From contig SLBA01000133.1 in assembly GCA_007126575.1 (NCBI GenBank), positions 1 through 32,999 on the forward strand: a stretch of 32,999 bases of DNA. Direction: 5' to 3'. Positions 1 to 18,999 of this stretch are shown here, in pieces. The position numbers and the translations under genes are program-made. Source of the stretch: Gemmatimonadota bacterium. Its GTDB lineage: Bacteria > Gemmatimonadota > Gemmatimonadetes > Longimicrobiales > Gaopeijiaceae. Every line of letters starts with the position of its first letter. Position 1 is the stretch's first letter. The notes below the pieces were generated by a model. The model worked only from the letters and a program-made list of their open reading frames with translations. It had not been told where the DNA came from and searched no databases.

Positions 1-465
1 ACCGAGCTGACGTCGAACTCTGCGGGAACCGCAACGGTCACCGCGTATCTGGGAACCGATGCGACGGGCGAGGAGATCGGCAGGGTGGAGGTGATGATCA
101 CCGAGGGACCCAGGGGGACCGGGGATCCCGACGCCGCGGCGTCCACCATCGGAGCGAATCCAACCATACTCGTACTTGCCAATACTTCGGTGATCACGGT
201 TCAACTCCGGAACAGCGACGGCGAGAGACTCGAGCAGGCCGGGCACGTTATCTTCCTCACCGCGTCCGGCGGAGATGTGTCGCCGAATCGAGGTGAGACC
301 GACGAGCGCGGTCAGTTCGTTGCAACGTTCACGGCGGGGTCGATCGGCTCTGCGAGGGTGACCGCATATCTTGGTTCGAATGCGTCGTTCCCTGAGATCG
401 GGACCGTGACGCTCACGGTGATCTCTGCGGACGTCGTGGGCGAAAGCTCACCAGACGGACCTTAA
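1..465 (+). CDS. Ig-like (Big-type) repeat protein, C-terminal fragment
   Basis: The frame is open from base 1, so the gene begins outside the window and only its last 154 codons are seen. The fragment holds the end of one and the whole of a second bacterial Ig-like repeat. Both repeats end with a VTAYLG strand followed by an EIG...V strand, and the complete one has the usual SNGxT/TDERGQFVATFTAG pattern of Big-type domains. Such domains are structural beta-sandwiches in secreted or surface proteins; no catalytic part is visible here. The protein ends shortly after the last domain without a sorting motif. The next gene lies 67 bases downstream on the same strand, and the kinase after it carries the same kind of domain. 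The domain class is fairly sure; the role of the whole protein cannot be told. Confidence 0.75.
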   Translation, partial: TELTSNSAGTATVTAYLGTDATGEEIGRVEVMITEGPRGTGDPDAAASTIGANPTILVLANTSVITVQLRNSDGERLEQAGHVIFLTASGGDVSPNRGETDERGQFVATFTAGSIGSARVTAYLGSNASFPEIGTVTLTVISADVVGESSPDGP

Positions 466-532: not shown

Positions 533-2233
533 GTGATGTCCGCATCACATACACGTTCATACGGATACGGCGGGAGGCGGATGGAGAACGGGATGAATAT
601 GGGACTTCTGGGTGGCCTCTGCCCGGCGGATCCATCGGGGATGGTTCAGGGTGCCCTCTGCTTCGTGGCCACGTGGGAGATCCCGATTCTCGTCCTTGTC
701 GCAGCGGCCGTGGGATTCAGCATCTGGCTTCGACGCCGTTCGGATGACCAGAAACGCGCGGAGCCTCCCATGCTGGTGTTTCCCCTTGGACGCTCGGCGG
801 GCGCTGGGCCCTCAGGCTCCGGACGGCAGGGGGTGCCGGAGCGGAGGCCCAGGACCGTTACCTCGGACCCGAGCACCGAACCGGATCCGCCACGCCCGGG
901 GTCGAGTCCGGATCCAACCCCTCGGGCCCCCACCTCCGAGGGTGCCGGTGGTACCTCGCAGCCACCCGATGGGGAGGCGTCCGATCCGTCCCGGCGCACC
1001 ATGCTGAAGGTTCCGCTCGAGGCGGGAGTCGACGCCCCCGGTACTCCCGAAAACCGTACGACCCCCTCCGACGAGATCGTTGAGTACCAGCGTCCCCCTG
1101 ATGGCACCCTCCAACTTCTGCCGGGCCGCCTCGAGGTCGAGCGGGGTCCAGGGGTGGGCCAGGAGATCCGGTTCGTTCGGGTGCCGGGCTCCCCGGCGGA
1201 GGTCACCTTCGGTCGAGCCGAGGGGCCGGAGTTTCGGCATGTACAGCTGCATTCGCCGACGGTGAGTCGCCAGCATGCCCGCCTCCGATTCGATGGCTCG
1301 GGCTGGTCGGTCCGAAACGAGTCGAGCACCAATCCCACCAGCGTGAACGGTCACACCCTGTCGTCGGAGATCGAAGAAGTGCCCCTCGCCGATGGAGACC
1401 GGATCGAGATCGGGGAGATCACCTTCCGGTTCCGGCACGAGGGCTCAACGGACCGCCTCCCCTTCCGGAGTTCATGGCACACGGATCAGGGGCGGCGGCC
1501 GACCAATCAGGACGCGGTCGTGGTCCGGACCCTTCCCGGAGGACGAGAGCTGGCGGCGGTCTGTGACGGCATGGGATCCCATCACGCGGGAGGGGTCGCC
1601 AGCCACCGGGCGCTCGAGGGGCTCGTGAAAGCCCTCTCCGAAGGGATCGAACTCGAGGAGGCCGTCCAGCGTTCGAATGCCTCGGTCCTGGCGGCGGCCG
1701 AAGAGGAGGAGGACCGCGAGGGGATGGGCACCACGCTCGTGGCCCTCCTTCGGGATGGCGATCACTACGATGTCGCGAATGTCGGGGACAGTCGCGCCTA
1801 CCGGATCGGATCCGACGGGATCCAGCAGCTGACCCGCGATCACTCCTTCATGGCCGAGGCAGTGCAGGATGGCCGGATGTCGATGGAGGAGGCGGCGCGC
1901 TCTCCATGGCGGAACGCGGTCACCCGGAACCTGGGTGCGGACCGGGATCTCGACGTGGATCTGTTTCGGGGCTTCGACGCCACGCAGGACCACATCGTCA
2001 TTCTGTGCACCGACGGGGTCCACGGGGTCCTGTCGGAGGATCAGATCGTCGAGGTCTACCGAAACTCCGGCGACATTCGGGACCTGTCTCGCGCCCTCTC
2101 GGAAGAGGCACTCATCAAGGGCGGGGAGGACAACGTGGCCGTGGCCGCGATGGCGTTCGGAGCGGGCTCCGGAGTCCGGTCGGCGCCGAATGATCACTCC
2201 GGTGGTCGCCCTTCCTCGAACCATCGCGGATGA
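533..2233 (+). CDS. Membrane-anchored FHA domain / PP2C-type Ser/Thr phosphatase
   Basis: Predicted to remove phosphate from Ser/Thr of partner proteins. A short N-terminus is followed by one membrane segment (about residues 48-66, then Arg-rich, so the rest should be cytoplasmic), a Pro/Gly-rich linker, an FHA domain (about 196-300, with FGR, SRQHARL and NPTSVNG phosphothreonine-binding elements) and a PP2C domain (about 310-545). The PP2C metal and catalytic motifs are all present: RRPTNQD, CDGMGSHHAGG, GMGTTL, NVGDSRAYRI, TDGVHG and GGEDN. The usual DGMGGH has Ser for the second Gly. The stop overlaps the start of the following Ser/Thr kinase (ATGA), so the two are translationally coupled and probably oppose each other. 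The start is uncertain: GTG 533 or ATG 536 share a GGAG at 523-526, and ATG 581 and 593 are also possible. A PphA/PrpC-like phosphatase is the nearest family. Confidence 0.88.
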   Translation: MMSASHTRSYGYGGRRMENGMNMGLLGGLCPADPSGMVQGALCFVATWEIPILVLVAAAVGFSIWLRRRSDDQKRAEPPMLVFPLGRSAGAGPSGSGRQGVPERRPRTVTSDPSTEPDPPRPGSSPDPTPRAPTSEGAGGTSQPPDGEASDPSRRTMLKVPLEAGVDAPGTPENRTTPSDEIVEYQRPPDGTLQLLPGRLEVERGPGVGQEIRFVRVPGSPAEVTFGRAEGPEFRHVQLHSPTVSRQHARLRFDGSGWSVRNESSTNPTSVNGHTLSSEIEEVPLADGDRIEIGEITFRFRHEGSTDRLPFRSSWHTDQGRRPTNQDAVVVRTLPGGRELAAVCDGMGSHHAGGVASHRALEGLVKALSEGIELEEAVQRSNASVLAAAEEEEDREGMGTTLVALLRDGDHYDVANVGDSRAYRIGSDGIQQLTRDHSFMAEAVQDGRMSMEEAARSPWRNAVTRNLGADRDLDVDLFRGFDATQDHIVILCTDGVHGVLSEDQIVEVYRNSGDIRDLSRALSEEALIKGGEDNVAVAAMAFGAGSGVRSAPNDHSGGRPSSNHRG

Positions 2234-5200
2234 TGTCCGGCGAACAACCGACGGGTCCCCTGCCTCAGATTCCCGAGATCGCGGCAGATTATGAGCTCGT
2301 TCGCGAACTCGGGCGCGGGGGGACCGCGGTCGTCTACCTGGCGCGCGATCGAGACCTGGGGCGTGATGTGGCGATCAAGCTCATCCGTCCAACGTATGTG
2401 AAGGATGAGGATGCGGTCGCCCGCCTGGTTCGCGAGGCCCGGACAGTCGGAAAGCTCCAGCATCCGAACATCGTCATGCTCCTGGGGACCCGGAGGCTGT
2501 CGGACGGGGGGCTCGCGCTGATCCTTCAGTACGTTCCGGGCCGCTCCCTCAAGGACCGGATTCGCGAAGAGGGCCCGCTCCCCTTCGAGGACGCCGAACG
2601 GATCCTCTCCGACCTCGCGAGGGCACTCTCGTACGCCCATCACTCGCGCATCGTGCATCGCGACATCAAGCCCGAAAACGTCTATCTGGACGAGGCGGTG
2701 GGGATGGCCCGCCTCGCCGATTTCGGAATCGCTCGGGCCTGGGACAGCGATTCGGGACTGACCCTGCCGGGCACGGCGATCGGAACCCCGTCCTACATGT
2801 CGCCCGAGCAGGTCGACGGTCGGGATCTCGACGGTCGAAGCGATATCTACAGTCTCGGCCTCCTGGGGTGGGAGATGCTCACCGGATCGCAGCCGTGGGA
2901 GGGCGAGAGCCTCTACTCGGTGATCGCGAAGCAGAAGAACGAGGACCTGCCGTCGGTCAGAGAAATCCGGCCCGGTGTGCCCGATCGGCTGGTTCGCGCG
3001 ATCGAAGGCGCCACCAGGAAGAGCCCCGACGACCGATGGAAGAGCGCCGACGCCTTTCTGGGGGTTCTGGAGAGCGAGCCCGAAGGTGAGTCGGACTCGC
3101 TACCGGTGGGGCGGACGCCGCAGTCCGTTGCGAAACCGATCCCGGCGCCCTGGGTGGAGAGAAACGCACCATCCGCTCCGTTCCGGCAGCCGGCGGGCCC
3201 ACCCGTCGCTGAAGCGCCACCCCCGTGGGAGGCTCAGGTGCCGGATCCGGACCGCGGGGAAGAGGGTGGAGCGCCCACCGCCTGGAAGATCGCAGCGGGG
3301 CTCGTCGGGGTCGTCCTCTTCATGATCCTGGGACTCGCCTTCATGGAGCCCGAAGGTGAGGTCCGGGCGTTCGTCGACGGATTGAATCCTTGGGCCGATC
3401 GCACCACGGCCTTCTTCGACGACAGCGAGTTCATACGCAGGTCCGAGGATGCGCAGTCCCCGTCCGAGGGGGAGCCCCCAGCCGAGCCGATCGGCGAGGA
3501 CACCGACTTTGACGTCGCCGATCTGGACGCGCTGGATCTGGATGCGTTCGACGTGGATGCGGCGGTGGGTGAGGGGCTGGGGCCGTCCGGGGCGCTTTCG
3601 GTCCTGCAGGGAGATGGGCAGACAGGCCCGCCGGGTGCCCCGCTCGGCTCGCCCCTGATCCTCCTGCTCGTGGATGAATCCGGCGCTGGGATTGGCGGAG
3701 CCGAGGTCGAATTCGAGGTCGTCGCCGGAGGGGGATCGATCGATCCGTCGCTCGACGTGACCCGGCCGGATGGGAGCTCCCTGGCGCGGTGGACGCTCGG
3801 TGAATCGGGGGAGCAGCGGGTCGAGGCTCGGGCGGTGGGTGTCGACGGTGTTCAGGCGGTCTTCGAGGCCAGCCTCCGCGACCCCGTCCCCACCGCGCTC
3901 GAGCCGCTCGGCGGGACGTCGGTCGCGGGGCAGCCGGGCCAACCCCTCTCGGATCCGATCGAAGTCCGACTGGTGGACGATCAGGGACGGCCACTGCCCG
4001 GGCAGACCGTGCAGTTCGTGGTCGAGTCGGGAGGAGGGTCGGTGAGCCAGGCTTCGGTCTCCACGGGCCCGGATGGGGTGGCTCGGGCGGAGTGGACCCT
4101 CGGTTCCGATGCGGGGACCCAGGTCCAGGTGCTGCTGACGCGGGTCGAGGACCGGCCCGAGGTAGAGGCTCGGTTCGAGGCCGAGGTCGAGGCGTTCACC
4201 TTGCCCATACGTTCCGGGATCGTGGTCGGTGGCAGTCACAGCTGTGTCCTCGGTGGCGATGGTACCGCCCTCTGCTGGGGGGCGAATGACAGCGGCCAGC
4301 TCGGCGACGGCTCCGGAGCCCGACGCCTGGCGCCCTCGGCACCGGCGCAGGGGGGTCCGTTTGCGGAACTCGCGGCGGGCGTCTCGCACAGTTGCGCACT
4401 CACACGCGAAGGCCAAGCCTACTGCTGGGGCGCGAATGACCAGGGACAGCTGGGGCGCACCGGAGGGGGTTCGACCACCCCGTCTCCGATCTCGGGCGCC
4501 GAGACCTTCACCCGGGTCGCGGCGGGACTCGGCCACAGCTGCGCACTGTCTCGCGAGGGCGCCGTGTACTGCTGGGGGCAGAACGGAAACGGTCAGCTGG
4601 GCGACGGGACCACCACGACGCGCTCCAGCCCGGGACGTGTGGCCGGGGACTTGCGCTTCACGCAGATCACCTCGGGGTGGCGCCACAGCTGCGCGCTCGA
4701 CGGGCAGGGAAATGCCCACTGCTGGGGAGACGGGTCGTCCGGGCAGCTGGGGCATGGGGGCACATCGGGCAGCTCCTCGCCCCGGGCCGTCGGCGGAGGT
4801 CATCGGTTCACCCAGCTCGCCGCGGGAAATGCCCACACCTGCGGGAGAACGCCGAACGGCCGGATCCTCTGCTGGGGATCGAACCAGTTCGGTCAGCTGG
4901 GGACCGAGGATCCGGGAAACACCCCCGTTCCGACTCCGAGCGAGAGCGACGAAACCTTCACGCGGGTGACGGCCGGTGGGGTGCATACCTGCGGGGTCGC
5001 AGAGGGTGGAGCGGCGTTCTGCTGGGGGCGGAATCTCTACGGGCAGATCGGAGACGGGACCACGAACGACCGTGCGCTTCCCACCTCGGTCGCGGGCGGG
5101 ATCCGGTTCGCGGACCTGGCCGCGCTGGGCTCGCACAACTGCGGGCGCACCCCGGGGGGGGAGATCTACTGCTGGGGATACAATGTCGAGGGGCAGCTGG

Positions 5201-5259
5201 GTGACGGGACGCGCCAGAATCGCTCCGAGCCCGTGCCCTCGACGGGCGGAGGCTCCTGA
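2230..5259 (+). CDS. Transmembrane Ser/Thr protein kinase with Ig-like and RCC1 sensor region
   Basis: A Hanks-type kinase joined to a large extracytoplasmic region (1009 aa). The kinase domain (about residues 18-280) has GRGGTAVV, VAIK (K50), HRDIKPEN (D145, N150), DFG (164-166) and GTPSYMSPEQ, so it looks active. A Pro-rich juxtamembrane linker is followed by a single membrane helix (about 351-372), an Asp-rich stretch (424-443), two Ig-like domains (about 455-553 and 557-655, each ending in a WTLG...G motif) and seven RCC1 repeats (about 658-1005). Each RCC1 repeat carries an HxC and a CWG, giving 14 regularly spaced cysteines. PknB-type kinases often have PASTA repeats or beta-propellers as external sensors; an Ig plus Cys-paired RCC1 sensor is unusual. 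The start ATG overlaps the phosphatase stop. The external ligand is unknown. Confidence 0.92.
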   Translation: MMSGEQPTGPLPQIPEIAADYELVRELGRGGTAVVYLARDRDLGRDVAIKLIRPTYVKDEDAVARLVREARTVGKLQHPNIVMLLGTRRLSDGGLALILQYVPGRSLKDRIREEGPLPFEDAERILSDLARALSYAHHSRIVHRDIKPENVYLDEAVGMARLADFGIARAWDSDSGLTLPGTAIGTPSYMSPEQVDGRDLDGRSDIYSLGLLGWEMLTGSQPWEGESLYSVIAKQKNEDLPSVREIRPGVPDRLVRAIEGATRKSPDDRWKSADAFLGVLESEPEGESDSLPVGRTPQSVAKPIPAPWVERNAPSAPFRQPAGPPVAEAPPPWEAQVPDPDRGEEGGAPTAWKIAAGLVGVVLFMILGLAFMEPEGEVRAFVDGLNPWADRTTAFFDDSEFIRRSEDAQSPSEGEPPAEPIGEDTDFDVADLDALDLDAFDVDAAVGEGLGPSGALSVLQGDGQTGPPGAPLGSPLILLLVDESGAGIGGAEVEFEVVAGGGSIDPSLDVTRPDGSSLARWTLGESGEQRVEARAVGVDGVQAVFEASLRDPVPTALEPLGGTSVAGQPGQPLSDPIEVRLVDDQGRPLPGQTVQFVVESGGGSVSQASVSTGPDGVARAEWTLGSDAGTQVQVLLTRVEDRPEVEARFEAEVEAFTLPIRSGIVVGGSHSCVLGGDGTALCWGANDSGQLGDGSGARRLAPSAPAQGGPFAELAAGVSHSCALTREGQAYCWGANDQGQLGRTGGGSTTPSPISGAETFTRVAAGLGHSCALSREGAVYCWGQNGNGQLGDGTTTTRSSPGRVAGDLRFTQITSGWRHSCALDGQGNAHCWGDGSSGQLGHGGTSGSSSPRAVGGGHRFTQLAAGNAHTCGRTPNGRILCWGSNQFGQLGTEDPGNTPVPTPSESDETFTRVTAGGVHTCGVAEGGAAFCWGRNLYGQIGDGTTNDRALPTSVAGGIRFADLAALGSHNCGRTPGGEIYCWGYNVEGQLGDGTRQNRSEPVPSTGGGS
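4213..5250 (+). repeat. Seven RCC1-type repeats encoded in the kinase gene
   Basis: Seven units of about 48-50 codons share the pattern F(T/A)xxxAGxxHxCxxxxxGxxxCWGxNxxGQLGDG. Seven is the number of blades in the eukaryotic RCC1 propeller, so the region can form a closed seven-bladed propeller. The paired Cys in every unit, 10 residues apart, suit disulfides in an oxidising compartment. Confidence 0.88.
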
Positions 5260-15705: not shown

Positions 15706-15751
15706 TGACCCCGGTCACAGCCGGGGGTCAAGTCGGTCATGACCGCGGTCA
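15706..15751. promoter_or_regulatory. Cluster of GGTCA/TGACC elements upstream of tetR (candidate operator)
   Basis: In 46 bases there are TGACC-CC-GGTCA (15706-15717), GGGTCA (15725-15730), the perfect 12-base palindrome CGGTCATGACCG (15734-15745) and another GGTCA (15747-15751). TGACCCCGG with CCGGGGGTCA (15706-15730) can also form a hairpin, so part of it may terminate the metalloprotease transcript that ends at 15749. The position directly in front of the tetR start suits autoregulation. Confidence 0.5.
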
Positions 15752-18451
15752 GCGCAGGGGCTCCAGTCTGCCTTCCTCGAGCTCGAAGGAACGCAGCCCG
15801 TCCGAGAACTGGAAGCGCACGTTCTGGCCCTCCCAGAGATCGAGGCGGAGCGTGCCACCACGCAGGAGGCCGACCATCTCACCGGTGTCGCGGTCCCAGA
15901 CGGTGACCGTGGGGAAGATCTCGGAATTCCATTCGAGTCGCTCCCCGGGCGCGCCGGCCGCCGCGGTGCGTCGGACCAGCGCCTCCGCGCTCTCCAGCCC
16001 CTCGGGGAGCTCGTCGACGCGGCTGCGCTGCGCCGAGACCGGATCCAGGGGCGCCCCGGTGCGGCGCTGCACATCGCCGCGGAATCCCGCCTCCGGAGCA
16101 CGCACCTCGATCTCGTGCAGTCGCTCGTGATCGATGGTGCTGATCGGCAGCACGTACGCGAAGTGGTGCTCGGTTTCATCGGGAGCATGCGTGACCCTGG
16201 CCGGCGAGAACCCGTAGTTGAAGAGCTCCTGCCCGTCGGCGGTCAGACCGACCAGACGGTAGGGGCCCGAACTCTCGGGCGGGCTTGGGGTGGCGCTCGT
16301 GGAGATCACCGGGTGCAGTTCGGCGCCCGACGAGGAGACCGTCCCGCTCACGAGGATTCGCGAGTCGGCACCGCGGGACATGGTGGCGTAGGAAGCCGGG
16401 TCGAACACCGGCTTCCGGTCCCGCCAGTCGAGAACGATCTCGTAGTTGTAGTCACTGATCCAGCGCGGTCCGCAGTAGCTCATGAGATCTCTCATGGCCA
16501 CCGGAGACTGGATGGGTTGTTCCGCTCCCCGATCGTAGCCGGCATGCCCCAGCTGGGCGTTGGCGTACGGGTAGTTCGTATCCACTCCGGACGGGTTTCC
16601 GCAGGGGGCGTGGGGAAGGCTCAGGTTGTGGCCCAGCTCGTGCGCGACCGTTGCCGAGGCCTGGGGAAGGCGATCATAGGTCATGCCGACCTGGCGAGTG
16701 GTGTTGTTGATGCTGGGAGGCAGGTACGCTACGCCCGCGAAGATCAGGGGGCCATCCCCCGGAAAGATCCCGTGCAGGTAGTGATCACCGATCGAGTCCC
16801 GGGTCGAGATGAAGTGACTCAGCAGGGCGCCGAGTGCGGCTGTGTGAACCTGGCCCTGGTTGTTGTAGAGATTGGTGGTGAAGGTGCCTCCGATGTAGGA
16901 AGAATCCCGGCCCACCGGCATGGCGCGGCGGGTGAAGTCCATGAACTCGTCCAGGTTCTGCTCGGTCAGATCCGCGGTGTTCCCCGTCTCGCCGTCACGC
17001 ATCGCCATGAAGCGGACATGAAGGAGGGGGAGATCGACGAAGTGGTCGAACTCGTAGATCGAGCCATCGGAGGGAAAGGAGCTGAACCGGCGGGTGACCA
17101 CGCCGACGTCCCCATCGGGGTCGATCTCGACCCGGACTCCGATCCCCGGTCGGACGAGGTCTCCGTCGAGCTCCAGGTTCCAGGTCAACGACGAGCCGTC
17201 GGGCGCGAGCGTGGTCGGGACGGAACCGACGGTGGGCTGCACCCGCTCACGGAGGATCTCGACCCCGTTGTCGTACACGATCAGTTCCGCGGGAGGGGGA
17301 GGGGCGTTCGACTCCGTCGCCTCGACGAAGACCCGCAGCAGTCCGGGCCGCCCTTCGATCAGGCGCACTCCTGCGTCCATCCGCTGGGTTGCCTGGTTGA
17401 TGTGCGCCGTGTGCACCGTGAAGTACCGGCCCACCGGTTCCCAGCTCGCATCCATCCCCTCGGCTTCGAGCGAGACCGCGGTGACACCCGAGACGCTGGC
17501 CTCGATCCGATTCACCCCGGGAGTGGCGCCGAGGGTCCACCGTTCGAGCCGGGCGAGTCCGTTCTGATCGCTCACCACCTCGGTCGCCGAGATCGATCCC
17601 TGTCCCTCCACCACCCGAAACTGGACGGTGACACCCTCGAGACCGTTCTCCCATTCGTCCTGAACCCTGACCGTGGGCTCGAGGGGGAGGAGGAGTCCGG
17701 CCTCGGCCTGAATCCCGGGCTCACTCAGCCAGACCGCCTCGTGCAGAGGGCCGGGGCGGGCATCGGCCCGGAGCACGGCCGTCAGCTGGCCGCCCAGCCG
17801 GGCCGTCAGGATCTGGTTGCCCGCTCGGGCCCCGAGCGTCCAGTCGGGAGTCTGCACCTGTCCGGCGCTGTCCGTCGTCGCCTGGTTCTGCGCCGGAGTC
17901 CCACCCTGCGTGGCCGAGAAGTTGATCGTCCGTCCCGGGATCGGGTTCTCGAACTCGTCGGTGAGCTCGATGCGGGGAAGACCGGTCAGCGTCGAGGTCA
18001 CCTGTGCGCCGTCCGGGTCGTCGCCCAGAACCCGCAGCCTCGCCGGAGGCCCGGGTCCCGACGCGACTTCGACCAGAACCGGATCCACGCCCTCGGCCTC
18101 GAAGGAAAGCGCGTTCGCTCCGGGCCTCTGTCCCATCCGCCAGCTGCTCAAGAAGAAGTGGCCGCTGTCATTCGTGGTGTAGGTGGTGCTCTGGATCGAG
18201 CCGCCTCCCCCCGCGACGCTGGCGGTCACCTCGACATTCGGAATCGGGTTGCCGTATTCGTCCTGGACCTCGACCCGGACCGGCGACGGCAGGAGCTGGC
18301 CGGCCTGCCCCTCGGTCGGTCCCTCGGCCATGAGCGTGGCCTCGAGGAGACTCGGGGGGGGGAAGAGGATCGAACTTCCGTCGTCGCAGGAGGTGACGAG
18401 CAGGAGCAGGAGGGGAATCCAGGCGAAACGAAAGCGGTGCGAGCCATTCAT
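15749..18451 (-). CDS. Lipoprotein with Ig-like repeats and metzincin-like zinc metallopeptidase domain
   Basis: A 900-residue lipoprotein: hydrophobic N-terminus then the lipobox LVTSC. Three Ig-like Big-type domains follow (about residues 35-130, 131-230 and 232-330), each ending in a W-x-x-G segment. The peptidase domain holds HELGHNLSLPH (604-614), a metzincin zinc site with Ser where Gly is usual, and a Met-turn-like RDLMSYCGPRW about 65 residues later. The last 200 residues form beta-rich domains without recognisable motifs. It probably acts at the cell surface or periplasm as a protease. The true start is ATG 18451, which overlaps the stop of the preceding outer-membrane-like gene (ATGA); the frame is open farther upstream but without a signal peptide. 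M66/M12-like relationships are possible but not settled. Confidence 0.85.
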   Translation of the reverse strand: MNGSHRFRFAWIPLLLLLVTSCDDGSSILFPPPSLLEATLMAEGPTEGQAGQLLPSPVRVEVQDEYGNPIPNVEVTASVAGGGGSIQSTTYTTNDSGHFFLSSWRMGQRPGANALSFEAEGVDPVLVEVASGPGPPARLRVLGDDPDGAQVTSTLTGLPRIELTDEFENPIPGRTINFSATQGGTPAQNQATTDSAGQVQTPDWTLGARAGNQILTARLGGQLTAVLRADARPGPLHEAVWLSEPGIQAEAGLLLPLEPTVRVQDEWENGLEGVTVQFRVVEGQGSISATEVVSDQNGLARLERWTLGATPGVNRIEASVSGVTAVSLEAEGMDASWEPVGRYFTVHTAHINQATQRMDAGVRLIEGRPGLLRVFVEATESNAPPPPAELIVYDNGVEILRERVQPTVGSVPTTLAPDGSSLTWNLELDGDLVRPGIGVRVEIDPDGDVGVVTRRFSSFPSDGSIYEFDHFVDLPLLHVRFMAMRDGETGNTADLTEQNLDEFMDFTRRAMPVGRDSSYIGGTFTTNLYNNQGQVHTAALGALLSHFISTRDSIGDHYLHGIFPGDGPLIFAGVAYLPPSINNTTRQVGMTYDRLPQASATVAHELGHNLSLPHAPCGNPSGVDTNYPYANAQLGHAGYDRGAEQPIQSPVAMRDLMSYCGPRWISDYNYEIVLDWRDRKPVFDPASYATMSRGADSRILVSGTVSSSGAELHPVISTSATPSPPESSGPYRLVGLTADGQELFNYGFSPARVTHAPDETEHHFAYVLPISTIDHERLHEIEVRAPEAGFRGDVQRRTGAPLDPVSAQRSRVDELPEGLESAEALVRRTAAAGAPGERLEWNSEIFPTVTVWDRDTGEMVGLLRGGTLRLDLWEGQNVRFQFSDGLRSFELEEGRLEPLR

Positions 18452-18999
18452 CGGCCGACTCCCAGCATCAGACGGAGACCTTGCGCGGGCACCGGGTTGA
18501 CCGCGATCTCGTCGGTGTACGAGGCGTACCATCCGGTGAACCCTGCCGCCAGGTGGACCGGACCGACCGGCACCCGGGCGAGCACGGCACCCGAGGGGCC
18601 GAAGACGGATCCGGCGCGCCCCGTGGTATCCAGCGACTCACCGTAATAGGCGGCACCCAGCATCAGCTCCAGCTCCACGCGGGGGTGGAGGGGGAAGCGC
18701 ACCGTCGGACCCGCGCTGACGAGGGTCGACCCGAACCCGTTACCACTCCCCAGCAGTGCGTGAGCCGATCCGCCCCAACGCTCACCGGAGAAGCCGGCGT
18801 GCGCGCCGAAGAATCGATGCGCGCCTCCACTCATTCCCGCCTGACCTCCGACGAGAGCCGCCTGGAAGCCGGGACCCGATCCTGAAGCATCGGGCTGCTG
18901 GGCTGCCAGCGGCGCTGCAGCCAGCGCCACGAGGGCGGGCAGCATCAGGACGACCGAGAGCCGTCGAAGCGAGGCATGAATCTGACTGGGATGGGGCAT
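18448..18999 (-). CDS. Small predicted outer-membrane beta-barrel protein
   Basis: A 183-residue protein with a signal peptide (about residues 1-34, hydrophobic VLMLPALVALAAAPLAAQ) and then Gly/Ala-rich alternating strands such as VSAGPTVRFPLHPRVELELMLGAAYYG and VHLAAGFTGWYASYTDEIAV. This pattern suits an eight-strand-type outer-membrane barrel, but no family is recognised. ATG 18999 is preferred over the GTG two codons earlier; no good Shine-Dalgarno sequence is seen for either. The stop overlaps the start of the metalloprotease lipoprotein, so both are made together and may work together at the outer membrane. Confidence 0.65.
   Translation of the reverse strand: MPHPSQIHASLRRLSVVLMLPALVALAAAPLAAQQPDASGSGPGFQAALVGGQAGMSGGAHRFFGAHAGFSGERWGGSAHALLGSGNGFGSTLVSAGPTVRFPLHPRVELELMLGAAYYGESLDTTGRAGSVFGPSGAVLARVPVGPVHLAAGFTGWYASYTDEIAVNPVPAQGLRLMLGVGR

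Follow-up and report, generated by a model that had tools for sequence, protein, structure and literature searches.

A conserved family of predicted receptor kinases with an RCC1 propeller ectodomain, encoded beside an FHA partner in Gemmatimonadota

What might a bacterium do with a membrane kinase that ends in an RCC1 propeller and whose gene overlaps that of an FHA-carrying phosphatase? The question arises from two genes in the window, as we call the whole stretch of DNA analysed (32,999 nucleotides), in which a first-pass annotation had recognized a membrane-anchored FHA/PP2C phosphatase and a membrane kinase bearing two Ig-like domains and seven Cys-paired RCC1 repeats. An open-frame check returned the same coordinates as that annotation—frames 533–2233 and 2230–5259, overlapping in an ATGA at 2230–2233—and the composition proposed for both proteins was likewise borne out by Pfam, by structure prediction and by the exact cysteine pairs. 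The features, in window coordinates, are the following:

1..465, + strand: 3' portion of a gene for an Ig-repeat (Big_1/Invasin_D3) protein, truncated at the start of the contig and possibly belonging to the same operon (Pfam Invasin_D3 4e-9, Big_1 1.1e-7)
581..2233, + strand: TM-FHA-PP2C membrane phosphatase gene, the frame being open from 533
656..712, + strand: phosphatase transmembrane (TM) segment, residues 42–60 (hydropathy; Arg-rich stretch after)
1202..1414, + strand: FHA domain, residues 224–294 (Pfam E 2.7e-16)
1502..2083, + strand: PP2C domain (PP2C_2), residues 324–517 (Pfam E 4.3e-15; DGMG, GDSR and TDG motifs)
2230..2233, no strand given: ATGA stop/start overlap of the phosphatase and kinase genes (sequence)
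2230..5259, + strand: kinase-TM-Ig-Ig-RCC1 receptor kinase gene, 1009 aa (open frame, Pfam)
2290..3036, + strand: Hanks-type Ser/Thr kinase domain (Pkinase), residues 21–269 (Pfam E 2.1e-48)
3037..3288, + strand: juxtamembrane linker of the kinase; the Thr motif conserved in sister clades is absent here
3289..3345, + strand: kinase transmembrane segment, residues 354–372 (hydropathy)
3592..4194, + strand: two Ig-like (Big_1-type) domains, a lineage-specific stalk (Pfam, model)
4219..5238, + strand: seven-bladed RCC1 propeller with seven C-x9-CWG Cys pairs (Pfam, cysteine pattern, model, Foldseek)

For the phosphatase gene, ATG 581 is a likelier start than GTG 533, because the orthologues begin at the equivalent of its MENG and a GGAGG-like site is present. 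The protein has a single strongly hydrophobic segment, at residues 42–60, and its FHA domain carries the GR, S-x-x-H and N-G residues of a phospho-Thr reader: R228, S245, R246, N267, N272 and G273 are invariant across the fused FHA-PP2C proteins, and H248 is present in the window protein and substituted in some relatives. The PP2C domain, which resembles the bacterial PP2Cs PstP and tPphA, combines its Pfam match with the conserved D345, D494 and D533 of the PPM phosphatases, an EDN motif lying at 532–534, just past the end of that match. The predicted model of the FHA-PP2C part is moderate only (pLDDT 72). Two cysteines, Cys 30 in the short N-terminal tail before the membrane segment (window 581–660) and Cys 43 at the segment's edge, are retained in several orthologues (GLCP...C.VA.WE).

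The kinase, for its part, retains intact VAIK, HRDIKPEN, DFG and SPEQ motifs, and the solved kinases nearest to its catalytic domain are PknB and StkP. One strongly hydrophobic segment separates the kinase domain from the ectodomain, giving the predicted kinase-TM-extracytoplasmic order of the bacterial Hanks-type (PknB-like) membrane receptor kinases. Pfam detected no PASTA repeats, such as would place the protein among the PASTA kinases PknB, StkP and PrkC, and instead scored one of the two Ig-like domains (Big_1, residues 577–634, E 4.8e-11) and seven stretches of RCC1 (E 3.6e-59); in the predicted model two Ig-sized beta-strand stretches stand ahead of the propeller. This is the only RCC1 protein of the window genome, which encodes about 11 other kinases.

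The first-pass annotation had placed the RCC1 propeller outside the cell as the sensor, so that its fold and location are decisive. An AlphaFold2 run on residues 451–1009, using 23 sequences, modelled Ig-sized beta-strand domains followed by the propeller at a pLDDT of 94.7; in this model the RCC1 ectodomain is folded. In Foldseek searches the model matched UVR8 best (TM-score 0.85–0.90, target-normalised), followed by HERC2, RCC1 and the ectodomain of the CRINKLY4 receptor (ACR4; 7a0j, 0.77–0.78, target-normalised), and sequence-profile searches also reached 7a0j (E 4e-20) and 7a0k (E 3e-15). Pfam, model and Foldseek thus agree on seven repeats closing into a propeller of the RCC1/BLIP-II family. 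All 14 cysteines of the kinase protein lie within that propeller (C672/682, 722/732, 771/781, 821/831, 871/881, 921/931 and 971/981) and none in the cytoplasmic part; of the 51 fusion frames scored, among them a few near-duplicates, every one has exactly 14 cysteines in its RCC1 part and nearly every one has a TM candidate between kinase and propeller, a weak one mainly in L073. Because the cysteines sit there as seven C-x9-CWG pairs, the propeller, lying beyond the TM segment, is most likely extracytoplasmic. Cultured members of the phylum Gemmatimonadota have a cell with two membranes; in such a cell the propeller would face the periplasm, and the annotated external position is to be amended in that sense, the surface-ligand sensing suggested along with it being a conjecture.

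Three other readings of the propeller bear on the same data. A cytoplasmic autoinhibitory RCC1 domain, as in NEK9, would explain why the order kinase-then-RCC1 is that of NEK8 and NEK9 (PMC12564199). These, however, are soluble eukaryotic NIMA-type kinases with no TM segment, whose RCC1 acts in the cytoplasm, whereas the fusions have the TM candidates just described and hardly any cysteine outside RCC1, where all 14 are invariant; with the kinase nearest to PknB and no NEK among the solved kinases at E ≤ 1e-40, we regard such a role as extremely improbable. That UVR8 is the top structural match, and that blade 4 of the window propeller carries a GWRHS motif at 816–820, might suggest a light sensor. 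UVR8 sensing requires several interface tryptophans, however, and the multiple GWRHT repeats of UVR8 have no counterpart here: the Trp at that position occurs in blade 4 only and is not specific to the fusions, so that the chance of a light sensor is practically negligible. The 14 invariant ectodomain cysteines could, thirdly, themselves be a redox switch; but the same pairs, except that of blade 1, are near-invariant in sampled unfused RCC1 proteins too—a sample drawn with CWG patterns and therefore biased—and so look structural, which renders a redox switch very improbable. A search for surface residues specific to the fusions, as compared with unfused RCC1 proteins, gave almost none beyond repeat residues of blade 1, so no binding face could be named.

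How far does this architecture extend? We tabulated 55 distinct kinase-RCC1 fusions within the window's class, and of 101 genomes sampled from the window's phylum, 13 had a frame containing both domains (E ≤ 1e-115, a strict threshold, with at most 10 candidates scored per genome), so that the family is widespread but patchy in the phylum. Under the same settings, 0 of 78 genomes sampled from the phylum to which G407, a record with a Myxococcales name, belongs had the fusion in one frame, and in 17 genomes outside the phylum that are rich in both families none of the matches listed spanned both domains; the absence outside the phylum is weak on account of that threshold and that number of candidates. 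A few records touch on this distribution: L087, titled Candidatus Kuenenia, has a locus clearly of the Gemmatimonadota type, with its kinase among the f5 rows, and is likely misbinned; and in L118:81-5874, L139:5245-10296 and L158:5987-11079 (under the names Caldilineaceae, Rhodanobacteraceae and Deltaproteobacteria) the gene directly after a kinase gene encodes a separate RCC1 protein, possibly as a two-gene version of the fusion.

A quick tree grouped the kinase domains of the fusions in a single clade (SH-aLRT 99), set apart from the remaining kinases of the window genome; besides fusions, this clade contains just L058 and one long-branch paralogue. In L058:2060-5114 the kinase and RCC1 occupy two overlapping frames, by a frameshift or an assembly error in an otherwise normal fusion, and a fused FHA-PP2C gene precedes this locus as well. 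In the RCC1-domain tree fusions and unfused RCC1 proteins are not cleanly divided (7 changes), so that propeller exchange between fused and unfused proteins is possible. Two fusion genes per genome occur in L206 (G195) and in L197/L207 (G128).

The supposition that kinase and FHA-phosphatase form a coupled pair fits this distribution well, since the partners are conserved together in dozens of genomes and not by chance. As judged from gene order, the FHA + kinase-RCC1 pair is conserved across the class: an FHA gene lies directly upstream of 48 of the 55 fusions (47 by script, plus L057), three fusions have no adjacent FHA gene (L068, L197 and the second copy in L206), and four loci are cut by a contig end. 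The upstream gene is a fused FHA-PP2C in six instances (five by script, plus L057), six others have the order FHA, PP2C, kinase, and 36 the order FHA, kinase. Relatives of the same family and order have the fusion adjoining FHA and PP2C; the class-wide set adds fusions with shorter spacers and a membrane-anchored FHA-only protein upstream, with no adjacent PP2C. The FHA on the phosphatase, which the first-pass annotation had called unusual, is thus a real fusion, but that of one clade: in most relatives FHA is a protein of its own, as a rule anchored in the membrane, and a PP2C gene may or may not adjoin. This distribution is most simply read as one clade's fusion derived from a presumably older FHA + kinase pair. 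Two FHA genes stand in tandem upstream of the kinase in L092–L095, L099, L203, L204 and L217.

A candidate contact between the partners lies in the low-complexity, poorly alignable linker between kinase domain and membrane. Leaving aside the window's fused-type clade and its nearest relatives, T-[VMIL]-x-[FYLIM] occurs in 34 of the 35 unique linkers, whereas 2000 rounds of shuffling the linkers yielded 2.9 on average and at most 10, and a stricter form of the motif occurs in 30, as against a mean of 0.9 and a maximum of 5; the patterns were written after viewing the linkers, which belong to related and not independent proteins, so that these figures describe conservation and constitute no formal test. 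Examples are DATVRFARP (L202), STVQFRRG (L095), DSPTIRYQRD (L067) and HAPTVRIPAE (L066). The sole linker without the motif, that of L197, also has no FHA gene; L068 has the motif and no adjacent FHA gene. In a comparison group of nine—the fused-type clade together with loci of that clade that are incomplete, plus L070, where the FHA protein lacks a TM segment—the loose motif appears once and the strict form not at all; the linker of L073 could not be delimited, and this locus was excluded from the counts. The window kinase itself belongs to those without the motif.

Two analogies lead us to consider this juxtamembrane motif a candidate site of autophosphorylation and FHA docking: one FHA protein binds a kinase encoded close by once that kinase is phosphorylated (PMC4238996), and GarA/OdhI use their own FHA to bind their N-terminal part in its phosphorylated state (PMC2784874). 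Many FHA partners (e.g. L192, L198, L200) have a look-alike of the motif just before the FHA domain, such as SETVRFVRP, often with the Thr replaced, which might be a self-docking or mimic site; the corresponding stretch is disordered in the window model.

The loss of the motif in the window's clade, which yet keeps FHA and PP2C, lends weight to a different arrangement, in which the propeller still senses but FHA reads substrates or other phosphoproteins and PP2C acts broadly as PstP does, with no feedback loop docked on the receptor. The likeness of the PP2C to PstP and tPphA, and the other kinases of the genome as possible clients, point the same way. Nevertheless, in nearly all genomes, including those with no PP2C, the gene immediately before the RCC1 kinase is the FHA gene, which argues for a kinase-specific partner, and we judge a general signalling pair unlikely, albeit one to be taken seriously.

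The neighbouring genes bear on the role of the ectodomain. Directly upstream of the pair, a gene of the Big_1/Invasin_D3 Ig-repeat family is found in L054, L055, L056 and L061 as well as in the window; within the window's clade it precedes the phosphatase (window 1-465, L054:1-1431, L056:10887-13001), and elsewhere, in several lineages, the genes after the kinase encode a secreted Ig-repeat protein (Big_2/Big_1) and an exported TPR-membrane protein (e.g. L188, L192, L067). These Ig-repeat and TPR proteins are candidates for ligand, output or scaffold. Further along the window, at 15749-18532 on the − strand, a gene encodes a protein predicted to be secreted, which has Big_1 Ig domains together with a weak match to the metallopeptidase family Reprolysin_3. 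Ig-repeat genes adjoin in several lineages, and laminin binding has been reported for PknD, a propeller kinase of M. tuberculosis (PMC3322341). Both would suit a propeller and Ig stalk that act in the periplasm by adhesion or as a scaffold and hold the kinase in position, for instance with the co-encoded Ig-repeat proteins, instead of sensing a ligand. Against this stand the kinase-TM-ectodomain layout, which is that of bacterial receptor kinases, and the constancy of the propeller, which is always kept in the fusions while spacer length and Ig content vary; we consider adhesion or scaffolding rather improbable. The one f5 relative scanned with Pfam has no Ig domains, and the f5 spacers are shorter, so by domain content the Ig domains are an optional, lineage-specific spacer.

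Among known systems, the plant receptor CRINKLY4/ACR4 likewise joins a membrane Ser/Thr kinase to a seven-bladed RCC1-like ectodomain, its "crinkly" repeats having C(X10)CWG motifs (PMC4617170) where the window kinase has C-x9-CWG. It differs in its N-terminal propeller, TNFR domain and C-terminal plant RLK-type kinase, whereas the window protein has the kinase N-terminal and the propeller C-terminal, hence the opposite membrane orientation, together with an Ig stalk, a kinase closest to PknB/StkP and no TNFR-like domain by Pfam. The plant phosphatase KAPP, composed of an N-terminal membrane anchor, a KI/FHA phospho-binding domain and a PP2C, binds receptor kinases in a phosphorylation-dependent manner (PMC4783359); the window phosphatase has the same anchor-FHA-PP2C order, but it is bacterial, overlaps the gene of its presumed kinase, resembles bacterial PP2Cs, and its kinase binding is putative. 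With PknB/PstP and other bacterial kinase-PP2C pairs the locus shares a PknB-like kinase and a PstP-like PP2C, and in a corynebacterial cluster FHA genes lie near kinase and phosphatase genes (PMC2784874); here, by contrast, PASTA gives way to an RCC1 propeller ectodomain and FHA is fused to a membrane-anchored phosphatase. PknD is a kinase-TM-beta-propeller sensor (PMC3322341, PMC1262709). Its order is that of the window kinase, but its propeller is six-bladed and NHL-type. We know of no FHA-PP2C partner gene for PknD. In its working the module would by these analogies come closest to bacterial receptor kinases of the PknB type paired with a PstP-like phosphatase, to which an FHA is joined as in KAPP and a CRINKLY4-like ectodomain is added, the likeness to the plant layout being an apparent convergence.

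Taken by sequence and predicted structure, the locus encodes a membrane kinase carrying a Cys-paired RCC1 propeller on an Ig stalk across the membrane, with a partner TM-FHA-PP2C protein encoded in overlap. We propose that the propeller would bind a periplasmic protein and so alter the association of kinase monomers, that the kinase would autophosphorylate, and that the membrane FHA protein would dock on a phospho-threonine of the kinase, in the sister clades probably that of the juxtamembrane T-[VMIL]-x-[FYL]; because this site is lost in the window's clade, FHA there would have to read another one, in the activation loop or a substrate. Docking might reset the signal in those cases where the FHA has a PP2C joined to it or encoded next to it, by carrying the phosphatase to the kinase or to the kinase's substrates; this step is not universal, since most f5 relatives have no adjacent PP2C. 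The conservation of the catalytic residues of kinase and PP2C, and of the phospho-binding residues of FHA, supports reading the locus as a transmembrane receptor-kinase module, yet the whole chain from ligand to reset we hold to be evenly balanced, mainly because docking and ligand rest on inference and the window kinase has no motif. A bolder formulation—a self-contained cassette whose periplasmic propeller controls the kinase, whose anchored FHA docks on the juxtamembrane phospho-Thr and was later fused to PP2C as a KAPP-like feedback phosphatase, convergent with the CRINKLY4/KAPP layout and with Ig-repeat surface proteins as possible ligand or output—we offer tentatively, thinking it somewhat more apt to fail than to hold.

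As to novelty, FHA is listed among the partner domains in a survey of PP2Cs (PMC12088040), so FHA-PP2C proteins as such were already known. Kinase-RCC1 fusions turn out to be common in the class, but we found no published description or characterisation of a bacterial one in the open-access literature; the receptor family is real and conserved, and apparently undescribed. To our knowledge, few bacterial receptor kinases have well-understood sensors other than PASTA. To these the family adds a conserved RCC1-propeller ectodomain, together with the FHA reader and phosphatase linked to it. Its proposed wiring, from juxtamembrane Thr through FHA to PP2C, is explicit enough to be tested, and for it the natural variants, with FHA separate or fused, PP2C present or absent, and the motif present or lost, would serve as controls.
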